A DNA stretch of 64,000 nucleotides from Lyngbya confervoides BDU141951 (GTDB lineage: Bacteria; Cyanobacteriota; Cyanobacteriia; Thermosynechococcales; Thermosynechococcaceae). The stretch spans positions 62,001 through 126,000 of the forward strand of contig NZ_JTHE03000104.1 in the NCBI RefSeq assembly GCF_000817775.3, read 5' to 3'. This document shows, in pieces, positions 44,842-50,441 of this stretch (its first letter is position 1; each line of letters begins with the position of its first letter). The notes beneath the pieces are model-generated. The model worked only from the letters and a program-made list of their open reading frames with translations, did not search any database and was not told where the DNA came from. The translations under genes and the position numbers were made by a program.

Positions 44842-46611
44842 ATGGCAATAAAGTATCAATCCAGGGCGCAACGGGAATCACAATGGGAATATTCCTTTGT
44901 TGAGTCTGCCATGGTTGAAAACGCTCAAACGTCTACACCCTATGCCCTCTCGGATTTTTGGCGGGGTGCGGTCATCTATCAAATCTATCCCCTCACCTTT
45001 GCCGATGGCAATGGGGATGGCATTGGTGACTTGCGGGGAATTATTCGGCGCCTAGACTACCTGAACGATGGAAACCCTCAGAGTCAGACCTCCCTGGGCG
45101 TGGATGCCATTTGGCTCTCACCGATCAATCATTCCCCCATGGTGGACAACGGGTATGACATTAGCGATTACTGCGATATTGCACCCGTGTTCGGCACGCT
45201 TAAGGACTTTCGAGAGCTGCTGCGCGAAGCTCACCGCCGTGGAATTCGCGTCATTTTGGATTTGGTGGTGAATCACACCTCTAATAAGCATCCTTGGTTC
45301 ATGGAATCGGCGGCAGGCCGCCACACTCCTAAGGCGGACTGGTATCTCTGGCAAGACCCCATGCCCGGTGGGAAACCTCCCAATAACTGGCTTTCTTATT
45401 TTGGGGGCAGTGGATGGGAATATTGCGAGGCCCGTGGACAATATTACTTTCACACCTTTAACGTCAACCAACCGGATCTCAACTGGCATAATCCCCAGGT
45501 CAAGCGTGCGGTCTTCAACATTGTTCGTTACTGGCTGGATATGGGCGTGGATGGCTTTCGCCTGGATGCTTCCAGCGTATTTATTAAGGACCCGTTCTTC
45601 CGAGATAATCCCCTCAAATATGGAGAATCGGCCCTGTCCGGCTATCGCAGCTTTCACCATATCTACGATAAAAATTTGCCCGATAACCACCAGATTATTC
45701 AGGATATCCGCGCCATTATCGATGAATATGACGATCGCCTTCTGATTGGTGAAACCTTTATTGATTGCTCGGTCTATGACTCGATTATTTTCTATGGGGT
45801 TGACAATGACGAGCTACACCTGCCCATTACCTTTGAGTTTCCCTTTAGTCCCTGGTATCCGGGCTTTCTGCAGCGGCTGATTGAAAAGCAAGAACGCCTG
45901 ACCCCCCCCGGTGCCTGGCCCACCTATTTTCTCGATAATCACGACATTCCTCGTCATCTCGCGCGCTGGGTGGACTGTAGCCTCTGTGTGGACTCAAGGG
46001 CGATCGCGCGGGCAGCAGCCACGTTGCTGCTCACCATTCGCGGCACGCCACTGCTCTACTATGGTCAGGAATTGGGCATGGTTGACAACGATGAAATTCC
46101 GCCAGAATTCCTCAAGGATGCGGCGGTGATGCTCAGCGATGTGGGAAATTCTCCCCTGCCCCGCGACGGTGCCAGAACGCCCATGCAGTGGGATCGTTCC
46201 ATCCACGCGGGCTTTAGCTTTGGTCAAACGCCCACGCCCTTTCTTCCGGTCCATGAAAACTATTTCACGGTCAACGTAGAGACGGAGCTACAGCACCCCG
46301 ATTCGATTCTCAATTTCTACCGTCGACTCATCCAGACCCGCCGCCAGAGCGCCGCCCTGCGATTGGGGGATTGGAAAACTCTGGTACACTTTCCCCATGA
46401 GCATCTGGCCTACCTGCGATCGCTAGCCTCAGAAACCGTGCTGGTGCTGATTAATTTTTCCTTTGAGAAACCCCTGAACCTCGATTACCCACTGCCCCCA
46501 GGCCCCTGGCGAGTGCTGCTGTCCACCCACTATCCCACCGAGGCCATGGTGGATCTCTCGGACACCTTGAATACCTACGAAGTCTCTCTTTTTCAGCAGC
46601 GGACCGCCTAA
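44842..46611 (+). CDS. GH13 alpha-glucosidase (oligo-1,6-glucosidase type)
   Basis: 589-residue glycoside hydrolase family 13 enzyme. Catalytic residues by motif: Asp242 (DGFRLDAS), Glu304 (LIGETF) and transition-state Asp368 (LDNHDIPR). The region-V sequence QPDLNW (about 210-215) is the form associated with alpha-glucosidase/oligo-1,6-glucosidase specificity; trehalose synthase is a less likely alternative, because family similarity is shared. No signal peptide. Probably it trims malto- or isomalto-oligosaccharides from glycogen. The start is ATG 44842; ATG 44911 would remove a poorly conserved leader. It follows the HtrA-type gene on the same strand. Confidence 0.88.
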   Translation: MAIKYQSRAQRESQWEYSFVESAMVENAQTSTPYALSDFWRGAVIYQIYPLTFADGNGDGIGDLRGIIRRLDYLNDGNPQSQTSLGVDAIWLSPINHSPMVDNGYDISDYCDIAPVFGTLKDFRELLREAHRRGIRVILDLVVNHTSNKHPWFMESAAGRHTPKADWYLWQDPMPGGKPPNNWLSYFGGSGWEYCEARGQYYFHTFNVNQPDLNWHNPQVKRAVFNIVRYWLDMGVDGFRLDASSVFIKDPFFRDNPLKYGESALSGYRSFHHIYDKNLPDNHQIIQDIRAIIDEYDDRLLIGETFIDCSVYDSIIFYGVDNDELHLPITFEFPFSPWYPGFLQRLIEKQERLTPPGAWPTYFLDNHDIPRHLARWVDCSLCVDSRAIARAAATLLLTIRGTPLLYYGQELGMVDNDEIPPEFLKDAAVMLSDVGNSPLPRDGARTPMQWDRSIHAGFSFGQTPTPFLPVHENYFTVNVETELQHPDSILNFYRRLIQTRRQSAALRLGDWKTLVHFPHEHLAYLRSLASETVLVLINFSFEKPLNLDYPLPPGPWRVLLSTHYPTEAMVDLSDTLNTYEVSLFQQRTA

Positions 46612-46660: not shown

Positions 46661-47050
46661 ATGGGACAGTACGAGCGCCTGATGCTGATGGCTCAAGACG
46701 AGCTAACCCAGTACAGCACCGATGCGCGCAAAATAGAAAGGCTACGTCAAAAAATAGGCCTCTCGGTGCCCCCGGTTGAGCAGCGCCAGATCAAAGCGCA
46801 GCTTGAGGCAGAACTACCCACCGGTGGTCTGATGAAGCTGCTGGAAACCCAGCGCCAAACCGTCGCGCTTCCCTTTTGGGGGATTGCCGGGCTGGGGATG
46901 CTGCTGGGAATTTCCATGCTTCAGCCCCTGGATTTTCTGGCCACCCTGCTGGGTGGGGCGATCGCCATCTATCTGCAGCGCCTAGGATGGAGCCTGGAGG
47001 CCAAACGCCTGCTGCTCAATACCTTGATGGACCTGGATAGTTCTGCTTAA
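46661..47050 (+). CDS. Unknown protein with two adjacent membrane helices
   Basis: 129 residues and not recognised. A charged helical N-terminal half (MAQDELTQYSTDARKIERLRQK and EQRQIKAQLEAEL) precedes two close hydrophobic segments (about 70-86 and 90-105), separated by a short turn. A helical tail (SLEAKRLLLNTLMDL) follows. The shape suggests a hairpin membrane anchor with a cytosolic helix. It lies 49 bp after the GH13 gene and 45 bp before an intrinsic terminator, so it closes that transcription unit. Confidence 0.7.
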   Translation: MGQYERLMLMAQDELTQYSTDARKIERLRQKIGLSVPPVEQRQIKAQLEAELPTGGLMKLLETQRQTVALPFWGIAGLGMLLGISMLQPLDFLATLLGGAIAIYLQRLGWSLEAKRLLLNTLMDLDSSA

Positions 47051-47206: not shown

Positions 47207-48313
47207 ATGTATTCCGATCTTGTCTCAATTTTGGTCGCCTCCAGTTATATTCCCCATGGGCATTGCTACCTCTGGGATCCAGCTCTGGTTTGGCTCCATG
47301 TTCTCTCAGATGGGCTGATTGGCTGTTCTTATTTTTCCATTCCCATGGCGCTGGTTTATTTTGTCCGGCAGCGAAAAGACGTCCCCTATCCCTGGATTTT
47401 CTTTTTGTTTGGGGCCTTTATTACCGCCTGCGGGATCACCCATTTATTCTCAATCTGGACCCTGTGGTCTCCCAACTATTGGCTGTCCGGATTAGTGAAA
47501 AGCGGCACGGCCTTAATCTCCCTGGCCACCGCTTTTAGCCTGATTCCCGTGATTCCTGGGGCCTTATCGCTTCCGAGTCAATCGGAACTTCTCCAATCTA
47601 AGGCTGAACTTGAGCAGCGAGTGTCCGAACGAACTCAGGCCCTGGAAACTTCGCTGGCGGAAAAGAATTCGATGTTGAAGGAAGTTCATCATCGGGTAAA
47701 AAATAACTTGCAAATCATCAGTAGCCTGTTGAGTTTGCAATCCTTTGCTAACGAAAATACCGCTGTCAAAAGTCTGATGGAGGACTGTCAGCATCGAATC
47801 CTTTCCATGGCGCTAATCCATGAAAAGCTCTATCGATCCAAAGACTTAGCCAGTATCGATATGGCGGAATATCTGCGAGATTTTTTAGAGCAGATATTTG
47901 CGGCCTATCGCGTTAACTTACCCCAGGTTCGTTTCTGTTTAAATTCAGAGGATATTGCCCTTGATATCGACGCGGCAATCCCCTGTGGGCTGATCGTGAA
48001 TGAACTGTTTTCTAACGCCCTGAAGCATGCCTTTGTGGGCCGAGACCAGGGAAGAATCACGGTTAATTTTTTTCGGCTGCCAGAGACAACCTGCGTGCTG
48101 CAAATTTTAGATGATGGAGTCGGAATGCGCACAGACATTGACTGGCAAGCGACTCGAACTCTAGGTTTAGCCATGGTGAAGGGCTTGGCTCAACAAATCT
48201 CTGGGACTATTTCAGCCATGGAGGGGGAAGGAACCGGCTTTGAAATTATCTTTCCGGCTCCGAAGGCTAACAAACTGAGTTCATTACACACAGGGGCCGT
48301 CGTGGCAGGGTGA
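47207..48313 (+). CDS. Ethylene-receptor-like histidine kinase
   Basis: 368 residues. The N-terminal 115 residues form three membrane helices closely like plant ETR1. Asp35, Tyr42, Ile45 and Pro46 (SDGLIGCSYFSIP) and Cys75/His79 (ACGITH) occupy the positions of ETR1 Asp25, Tyr32, Ile35, Pro36 and the copper-binding Cys65/His69. A coiled linker (about 125-155) connects directly to a HisKA_2-type kinase (phospho-His in EVHHRVKNNLQ, 161-162) and HATPase (LIVNELFSNALKHAF N-box, LDDGVGM). There is no GAF or phytochrome domain, unlike Synechocystis SynEtr1. It is 7 bp upstream of the receiver-GGDEF-EAL gene. Confidence 0.93.
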   Translation: MYSDLVSILVASSYIPHGHCYLWDPALVWLHVLSDGLIGCSYFSIPMALVYFVRQRKDVPYPWIFFLFGAFITACGITHLFSIWTLWSPNYWLSGLVKSGTALISLATAFSLIPVIPGALSLPSQSELLQSKAELEQRVSERTQALETSLAEKNSMLKEVHHRVKNNLQIISSLLSLQSFANENTAVKSLMEDCQHRILSMALIHEKLYRSKDLASIDMAEYLRDFLEQIFAAYRVNLPQVRFCLNSEDIALDIDAAIPCGLIVNELFSNALKHAFVGRDQGRITVNFFRLPETTCVLQILDDGVGMRTDIDWQATRTLGLAMVKGLAQQISGTISAMEGEGTGFEIIFPAPKANKLSSLHTGAVVAG

Positions 48314-48320
48314 GGTTGGA

Positions 48321-50441
48321 ATGGTGTATGTCGGTGAGCAATCCCAGATTAATGTTCTTGTGGTTGAGGACGAGGCCATTGTGGCCCTGGATTTACAGCG
48401 CCGCCTGGAGCGACTTGGATATCAGGTTCCTCATATTTTTGCATCGGGGCATGACGTGCTCGACCGTCTGGCTCAGCTTCAGTGTGATCTCGTGCTGATG
48501 GATATTCGCCTTCCCGGTGAGCTCAATGGGATTGAGACTGCGGAGCGCATTCAGCAACAGCGCAATATTCCGATTATTTTTCTGACGGCCTTTACTGACC
48601 CGGAAACGATTGAGCAGGCCCGACGCCTTGAGCCAGTGGGATATCTGGTGAAACCCTTTAGTGAGCCGAGCTTGAACTCCACGATCCAGGTGGGGCTGTA
48701 TCGGCATCAGATGCGGCTTGCCCTCCAGTCCCAGAAGGCCCGCCTCAAAACGATTCTCGACAGCATCTCCGATGCCGTGGTGGCCACCGATTCCGAGGGA
48801 CGCATTACCTTTATGAATCCGGTGGCAGAGACCTTAACAGCCTGGATGCAGCATCAGGCCGAGGGCTACCCGATTGATCAGGTCATTCAATGTTTTCAGC
48901 ATGGACCCAATGCGGAGGAGATCCCTGTTCCCAATCCTGCCTTGGAGGCTCTGGTGAGCGGGACCCCCGTGTCTTTACCTGAGGATGTGGTCTTGCGCAA
49001 CCGCGCACAAAAGAACATTCCCATTGACGATAGCGCGGCTCCGATTCTGGAGCCGGATGGCCGAATTTCCGGCGCTGTCATGGTGTTTCGAGATATTTCA
49101 GAGCGCATCCAATACCGTAAACAGTTGCTTCACCGGGCCCTGTACGACCCACTCACGGGGTTGCCGAACCGGGAGTTGCTCCTCAATCGCCTGGAACAGG
49201 CCATGGTGCGCTTCGTTCGATACCCGGCAGATGGCTATGCGCTGCTGTTTATCGATCTTGATCGCTTTAAGGCGGTCAATGATGGATTTGGGCATCTGGC
49301 GGGCGATGATCTGCTCAAGCAGGTGGGTGAACGGTTACAGCGCTGTTTGCGTCCCTCCGATACGGTGGCCCGCCTGGGTGGGGATGAATTTGCGGCGCTG
49401 CTGGAGCATGCGGCGGATCTGACGCAGGTGCGCACTGTGGCAGCTCGGATTTTGCAAACCCTGGGTGATCCCTTTGGATACCGTGGCCAGCAATTTTACG
49501 TTTCTGCCAGCATTGGCATTGTCTATGGAGAAACTGCCTACCGACATCCGCAGGATGTGATCCGAGATGCAGATATTGCCATGTACCATGCTAAAACCTC
49601 CGGAAAAGGGCGCTATACCATTTTTAATAGTCAGATGAAGTCTCAACTGCTTCAGCGCGTCCGCTTGGAAAACGATCTCCGCCAGGCCCTGGCCAATCAG
49701 GAGCTGGGCATTCGATATCAGCCGATTGTGGCCTTGGCGTCTCGAAGGGTGGTGGGGTTTGAGGCGCTGATGCAATGGCATCATCCCACCGAGGGGATAA
49801 TTGCCCCGGATCGCTTTATTCCGCTAGCTGAAGAGCTGGGGCTGATTCAAGATCTCGATCTGTGGATTTTACGCCAGGCTTGTGCTCAACTGCAGAGGTG
49901 GCGGGATGATTTTCCCGACTGTGGTCCGCTCACGGTGAGCGTGAATTTTTCAGGCAAAATTTTTAGCCACGCCCACTGCTTTGAAACCATTACGCAAATT
50001 TTCAAGGAGACTCAATTGCCGCCGAGTGCCCTGGTGATTGAAATCACTGAGAGCATCCTCATTGAGCATTCGGAGGCCGCAGAGCAACTGTTGGAGAACC
50101 TGAAATGTTTAGGAGTGGAGATTCACCTGGACGACTTTGGCACCGGATATTCTTCCTTGAGCTATCTGCACCACTTTCCCATTGATGCCCTCAAAATTGA
50201 TCGCTCCTTTGTCGACATCCTTTCCCAGGATGAACAGCATTCCTTTTTAATTAGCACGATTGTGACCCTGGCCCATGCCATGGATCTGCCCGCCATCGCT
50301 GAGGGGATTGAAACCCAAGATCAGTACGACATGATTCAGGCCCTCGGGTGCGATTTGGGTCAAGGGTATCTTTTCCATCGACCCCAGAGTCCGGCTCAAA
50401 TTTCAGCACTGTTGCGATCGCTGACCCCAGCGACCGAATGA
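48321..50441 (+). CDS. Response regulator with PAS, GGDEF and EAL domains
   Basis: 706 residues. The receiver domain (about 10-125) has acidic residues EDE at 16-18, phospho-acceptor Asp61 (LVLMDIRLP), Thr in FLTAF and Lys in YLVKPF. PAS follows (about 138-265), then GGDEF (about 268-435; intact GGDEF at 353-357, inhibitory RxxD at 346-349) and EAL (about 445-695; EAL at 481-483, HLDDFGTGYSSL and AEGIETQ present). Both catalytic sites look intact. It starts 7 bp after the ethylene-receptor-like kinase stops, so it is the likely phosphorylation partner and converts the signal into a c-di-GMP change. Confidence 0.93.
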   Translation: MVYVGEQSQINVLVVEDEAIVALDLQRRLERLGYQVPHIFASGHDVLDRLAQLQCDLVLMDIRLPGELNGIETAERIQQQRNIPIIFLTAFTDPETIEQARRLEPVGYLVKPFSEPSLNSTIQVGLYRHQMRLALQSQKARLKTILDSISDAVVATDSEGRITFMNPVAETLTAWMQHQAEGYPIDQVIQCFQHGPNAEEIPVPNPALEALVSGTPVSLPEDVVLRNRAQKNIPIDDSAAPILEPDGRISGAVMVFRDISERIQYRKQLLHRALYDPLTGLPNRELLLNRLEQAMVRFVRYPADGYALLFIDLDRFKAVNDGFGHLAGDDLLKQVGERLQRCLRPSDTVARLGGDEFAALLEHAADLTQVRTVAARILQTLGDPFGYRGQQFYVSASIGIVYGETAYRHPQDVIRDADIAMYHAKTSGKGRYTIFNSQMKSQLLQRVRLENDLRQALANQELGIRYQPIVALASRRVVGFEALMQWHHPTEGIIAPDRFIPLAEELGLIQDLDLWILRQACAQLQRWRDDFPDCGPLTVSVNFSGKIFSHAHCFETITQIFKETQLPPSALVIEITESILIEHSEAAEQLLENLKCLGVEIHLDDFGTGYSSLSYLHHFPIDALKIDRSFVDILSQDEQHSFLISTIVTLAHAMDLPAIAEGIETQDQYDMIQALGCDLGQGYLFHRPQSPAQISALLRSLTPATE

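Follow-up and report, generated by a model that had tools for sequence, protein, structure and literature searches.

How might an ethylene-receptor-type sensor in a cyanobacterium act on the cell, and could it do so directly through c-di-GMP? The question is raised by two adjacent genes in a 64,000-nucleotide stretch of Lyngbya confervoides BDU141951 DNA (contig NZ_JTHE03000104.1, positions 62,001 to 126,000; hereafter the window), which encode an ETR1-like membrane sensor kinase (P1) and a response regulator with GGDEF and EAL domains (P2). How bacterial ethylene receptors act inside the cell is poorly understood; the output described in most detail is a transcriptional regulator plus a small RNA. 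Biofilm formation and phototaxis in cyanobacteria change with ethylene, and c-di-GMP controls such behavior; a conserved operon that ties a receptor straight to a c-di-GMP enzyme would provide a short, testable link. The literature searched, which left most subscription papers outside its coverage, contained no tested link between an ethylene receptor and c-di-GMP or a GGDEF protein.

Organization of the gene pair

P1 and P2 are separated by 7 bp (Table 1). A first-pass annotation made from the DNA letters had given the coordinates, frames and spacing exactly, but it called the kinase "fused" to the regulator; the two are separate adjacent frames, and a single fused P1-P2 protein was rejected on this ground. 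The Shine-Dalgarno-like GAGG at the P1 stop codon likely couples translation of the two genes. Six terminator-like sites were found against 4.5 expected, and the hairpin upstream of P1, which has by far the longest stem, stands between P1 and an unrelated small gene. A promoter scan at the pair gave a result not above chance. From the short gap, the GAGG site and the upstream hairpin, we therefore infer a two-gene operon with translational coupling. Chance adjacency of P1 and P2 was rejected, being contradicted by the conservation of the pair described below; the observation of the pair is confirmed and lies far beyond chance.

Table 1. Features of the P1-P2 locus (window positions).
Feature	Position	Strand	Basis
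P1, ETR1-like membrane sensor kinase, 368 aa: three TM helices, helical linker, HisKA_2 with H162, HATPase	47207..48313	+	Pfam, binding residues, AF2, kinase motifs
P2, response regulator REC(D61)-PAS-GGDEF-EAL, 706 aa	48321..50441	+	Pfam, motif positions, orthologs
GAGG, Shine-Dalgarno-like, overlapping the P1 stop codon, 5 nt 5' of the P2 start	48312..48315	+	Sequence reading
Intrinsic-terminator-like hairpin, strong, 14 pairs plus T run, 5' of P1	47089..47120	+	Terminator scan
Terminator-like hairpin, weak, 7 pairs, near chance level, 3' of P2	50687..50704	+	Terminator scan

The small upstream gene (46661-47050) predicts a 129-aa protein with hydrophobic segments and no match in Pfam or NCBIfam. 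Two genes upstream of P1 lies a GH13 alpha-amylase-family enzyme gene (44842-46611), and the published Geitlerinema and Azospirillum ethylene-receptor genes have starch/glycogen phosphorylase genes nearby. The GH13 gene near P1 is probably a coincidence, because the terminator-like hairpin stands between them.

Sensor domain and kinase of P1

Pfam placed ETR1_N (PF25487) at residues 27-122 of P1 (E = 1.4e-41; 141.1 bits vs. a curated cut-off of 27), HisKA_2 at residues 159-234 (E = 3.8e-28; 97.8 bits vs. a cut-off of 22.3) and HATPase_c at residues 262-352. The same scan detected neither GAF nor PAS nor phytochrome domains in P1, and the interval between ETR1_N and the kinase carries no domain. 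P1 thus ends in a HisKA_2 kinase and lacks GAF and phytochrome modules, as the first-pass annotation had read it. Counterparts of all seven AtETR1 ethylene-binding residues are present (D35, Y42, I45, P46, I72, C75, and H79); I72 completes the set of Asp, Tyr, Ile-Pro, Cys75 and His79 recognized earlier. The same seven occur in 67 of 75 aligned ETR1_N sequences. P1 also has K98, the counterpart of ETR1 K91. The functional meaning of these positions comes from work on AzoEtr1, in which D35, C75, H79 and K98 are numbered as in P1 (PMC11819568).

Three N-terminal TM helices are indicated by hydropathy peaks and by AF2 helices at 25-55, 61-86 and 89-120, the latter at moderate confidence. Mean pLDDT of the P1 model was 76, with the linker and kinase core mostly at 82-91. 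The linker (residues 125-161) is helical, and AF2 predicts one unbroken helix from 125 to 181 passing through H162, the candidate phospho-acceptor and the second His of HHRVKNN. H162 and the kinase residues N270, D302, G304, G306 and G320 are invariant. The best PDB matches of the kinase half, by sequence and by fold, were to EL346, an HWE/HisKA_2 light-regulated kinase.

The closest paired kinases contain a PAS domain of ∼130 residues between ETR1_N and HisKA_2, which P1 lacks. Counted from a conserved LP motif, the phospho-His is 40 residues away in P1 vs. 169-170 in the kinases of loci L085, L138 and L052. Among the matches listed from 390 genomes, no second protein joined ETR1_N directly to HisKA_2; ETR1_N joined to other kinase types with no middle domain does occur (L081 and L091). 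The minimal architecture was rejected as a rule for the family, the relatives of P1 having PAS. At 368 residues and free of PAS and GAF, P1 offers a minimal construct for how ethylene binding reaches the kinase.

Domains and motifs of the P2 regulator

P2 consists of REC (residues 12-122), PAS (141-259), GGDEF (273-430) and EAL (451-688) domains, and the Pfam scan found no sigma-like domain in it. The receiver has its acid pair and phospho-acceptor D61. Catalytic motifs are intact, including GGDEF at 353, the inhibitory RPSD I-site at 344, EAL at 481, DDFGTG at 604, EGIE and others, so that the earlier reading of an intact phospho-Asp and apparently intact GGDEF and EAL domains stands. Tandem GGDEF-EAL proteins often retain only one of the two activities. 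The best NCBIfam match to the PAS-GGDEF-EAL half was Tlr1612 of Thermosynechococcus, a c-di-GMP enzyme that is probably a phosphodiesterase though both domains are present (PMC5871770). P2 differs from Tlr1612 in carrying a receiver, and its match covers only the C-terminal half of that model (490 bits vs. a cut-off of 1600); since P2 falls outside this family cut-off, the sign of any c-di-GMP change is not predictable.

The pair also resembles the general stress pair PhyK-PhyR, in that the P1 kinase is similar to PhyK (HisKA_2-type) and the P2 REC to the PhyR receiver, but NCBIfam scores were far below the cut-offs for both P1 (160 vs. 750 bits, PhyK) and P2 (85.7 vs. 240 bits, PhyR). The P1 kinase and P2 receiver thus appear to be of matching class. 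HisKA_2/HWE kinases tend to have partner regulators that lack a DNA-binding domain (PMC10359499).

Conservation of the kinase-regulator pair

We searched 390 cyanobacterial genomes with P2, then fetched the loci and annotated them with purpose-built domain profiles. About 20 full-length relatives scored 577-710 bits; from 507 bits down, the matches mostly reflected shared domains. A HisKA_2 kinase gene lies directly upstream of the P2 ortholog in 19 of 20 readable loci, the window included (L141 and L150, not resolved by annotation, were left out of the count). Only L061 departs from this, with what is left of a degenerate sensor upstream. The distance from the kinase to the P2 ortholog is usually 3-60 bp, with a few predicted start overlaps and one gap of 112 bp. 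Nine more distant REC-GGDEF-EAL genes were also examined, and in none of them is the gene directly upstream a HisKA_2 kinase. Window P2 is 42-48% identical to its orthologs. A phylum-wide search gave no additional ortholog of P2, a plasmid search returned weak matches only, with the pair absent among the matches listed, and a genome scan seeking named relatives yielded only distant non-cyanobacterial ETR1_N or HisKA_2 proteins. HisKA_2 kinase plus REC-PAS-GGDEF-EAL regulator is a conserved operon family, and the window pair is a member. A search of other genomes for the pair had been proposed in the first-pass annotation, which named lack of conservation in relatives as a ground for refuting its reading; the reading passed this check, and the conservation revealed in other cyanobacteria is new.

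Sensors carried by the pairs and their history

An ETR1-like kinase is present in nine pairs from three families (window included; two of the nine are inferred). ETR1_N was found in the paired kinase of the window, L137 (G215), L138 (G292), L083 (G124, the first few sensor residues being out of frame), L085 (G211), L147 (G040) and L152 (G085). The inferred pairs are those of G023, with sensor and regulator on two contig ends (L050 and L136), and G019 (L052), with the regulator cut after PAS by an insertion. All seven binding residues are kept in every complete ETR1-type sensor of the pairs. When the P1 sensor domain was matched against the 390 genomes, the top five sequences (66-69% identity) came from G292, G124, G019, G211 and G023, and all of them are sensors of these pairs. 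Ten P2-ortholog loci carry a kinase without ETR1_N (L139, L140, L142-L146, L148, L149, and L155). In those scanned (L139, L149, L143, and L144) the kinase inputs are PAS or REC, and the family therefore reads as one kinase-regulator module with a swappable sensor.

Two loci show damage. In L061:2287-2847 (G015, a family member), an ETR1_N-like fragment without the copper-binding Cys, most binding residues and the kinase lies upstream of an intact P2 ortholog. In L052:9328-13340 (G019), the P2 ortholog is broken after PAS by ∼1.8 kb of transposase-like frames; GGDEF-EAL persists in a frame of its own, with a further HisKA_2 kinase after it.

In a regulator tree rooted on distant homologs, L167 (with a REC-HisKA_2 kinase) was the first branch, ETR1-type pairs fell in three lineages, and the ten non-ETR1 pairs formed one nested clade. 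The simplest reading would be one early gain of the ethylene-type sensor and one later loss. Window P2 grouped with the L136/L061/L085/L138/L083 clade (99/97), which includes four of the five pairs with the best sensor matches, namely those with an intact regulator. Both window proteins sit on long branches, which makes the exact position of the window less sure; it was unplaced in an earlier tree with fewer rows. A tree of the kinases alone had poor resolution and put the window on a long branch; it was set aside.

Comparison with known ethylene receptors

SynEtr1/UirS of Synechocystis PCC 6803 is, like P1, a cyanobacterial ETR1_N sensor kinase with phosphotransfer to a response regulator, and it affects biofilm and phototaxis. 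Unlike P1, it carries a cyanobacteriochrome light module, and its output, slr1213, turns on CsiR1 RNA and slr1214 transcription and has no GGDEF/EAL (PMC6682694). A light and ethylene system of the SynEtr1/UirS-UirR kind was rejected for the window pair, given the missing GAF in P1 and the GGDEF-EAL output of P2. The GeiEtr2 gene of Geitlerinema sp. PCC 7105 also lies beside a diguanylate-cyclase-domain gene, and the cells bind ethylene (PMC6682694), but the GeiEtr2 receptor has PAS, GAF and a C-terminal receiver. AzoEtr1 of Azospirillum brasilense is a kinase that binds ethylene and has a biofilm phenotype, and its gene shares an overlap with that of a response regulator (PMC11819568). It differs from P1 in its length of 525 aa and its PAS domain, and its partner, unlike P2, is a lone receiver of 135 aa that lacks an output domain. 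L207, an A. brasilense match, was rejected as AzoEtr1 on inspection.

Proposed mechanism and alternative explanations

P1 and P2 probably form a dedicated two-component system, with c-di-GMP turnover under the control of a membrane domain of the ethylene-receptor type. Ethylene would bind at a Cu(I)-dependent site in the three-helix bundle and alter the pose of helix 3; the change would pass through the helical linker to the HisKA_2 dimerization helix carrying H162, by direct relay because no PAS or GAF lies between. The P1 kinase would then phosphorylate D61 of P2, shifting the balance between GGDEF (synthesis) and EAL (breakdown). Ethylene acts as an inhibitor of the ETR1 kinase, and indirect evidence suggests that SynEtr1 responds in the same way (PMC11819568); by analogy, it would most likely lower P1 kinase activity. 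With the operon kept in other cyanobacteria, ethylene gas may directly set the c-di-GMP (biofilm-and-motility) signal. The switch from ethylene to c-di-GMP put forward in the first-pass annotation is now better supported than by motifs alone, through the conserved pair and the seven binding residues; its ligand, phosphotransfer, enzyme output, direction and physiology (biofilm or phototaxis) we still infer.

The same regulator family pairs with quite different sensors, as in the ten loci without ETR1_N, and a real kinase-regulator c-di-GMP system could carry an ETR1-like domain that senses some other cue, such as another small alkene, CO or NO, copper, redox or membrane state. We regard this as unlikely: the ethylene-binding residue set is full in P1 and in the complete ETR1-type sensors of the pairs, and assays show ethylene binding by cyanobacterial ETR1_N proteins and cells (PMC6682694). 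Adjacency could also reflect inheritance rather than cognate signaling, with P1 signaling to other regulators and P2 controlled chiefly through its own PAS or by a different kinase. In two Acaryochloris-like relatives (L136 and L052) the regulator is followed by one more HisKA_2 kinase gene, so the wiring need not be one-to-one. Such an arrangement is nevertheless quite improbable for P1 and P2, considering that a HisKA_2 kinase closely adjoins P2 orthologs near-universally across the class, that the strong hairpin sets the pair apart from the upstream gene, and that a translational coupling signal joins the two.

The direct ETR1_N-HisKA_2 junction is a single example, and P1 could thus be an impaired kinase. 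On a further reading, P1 is a degenerate receptor in which loss of the PAS seen in its closest relatives uncoupled sensor from kinase and left the pair decaying, as the sensor of G015 and the regulator of G019 have decayed. However, each of the two window genes is an open frame of full length in which the catalytic and binding motifs that were checked are intact, AF2 gives a continuous helix from linker into kinase, and the direct ETR1_N-kinase proteins L081 and L091 also do without a middle domain; decay of the pair is very doubtful.

Other ETR1_N proteins and routes to c-di-GMP

An ethylene-type receptor by itself is ordinary. ETR1_N was present in 210 of the 390 cyanobacterial genomes (54%) and in 11 of 29 genomes of the window's family, and the diguanylate cyclase gene adjoining GeiEtr2 had been noted, without a test, in 2019 (PMC6682694); the novelty implied by the first-pass annotation was overstated to this extent. 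The window's own genome has two ETR1_N genes, and the second (L055:7840-9510; G000:C36) encodes ETR1_N-PAS-HisKA, with a receiver-domain gene 11 bp upstream.

Neighbors were surveyed for 94 cyanobacterial ETR1_N genes, a sample not drawn at random. Three encode ETR1_N fused to GGDEF (L059, L100, and L205), and no standard GG[DE]EF motif was found in the L100 fusion. In six, a GGDEF gene comes next after the ETR1_N gene; L054, L056, L183 and L204 have ETR1_N-HisKA-REC followed by REC-GGDEF(-EAL). A receiver protein follows 12 of the 13 sampled ETR1_N-HisKA_2 kinases, and in several cases this receiver protein is REC-PAS-HisKA and not GGDEF-EAL, so that the kinase type predicts a REC-PAS partner while the output varies. 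A broader reading is possible, and we hold it tentatively: cyanobacteria would have a dedicated ethylene-to-c-di-GMP two-component pathway, its ethylene sensor an early input of the operon family that was lost once to PAS-type sensors, with independent wiring through the ETR1_N-GGDEF fusion and REC-GGDEF partners.

The 302-aa L059 fusion (L059:7370-8278; G002, the window's family) has the seven binding residues and an intact GGDEF, and is the simplest possible putative ethylene-regulated diguanylate cyclase. In L157:8948-10969 (G181), where the cluster ends in REC-GGDEF-EAL, the binding-site Pro and Cys of the ETR1_N kinase are replaced (DYIAIGH), and ethylene binding may have been lost. Four ETR1_N kinases of ∼450 aa (L070, L076, L079, and L086) have the binding-site Asp changed to Asn (NYIPICH).
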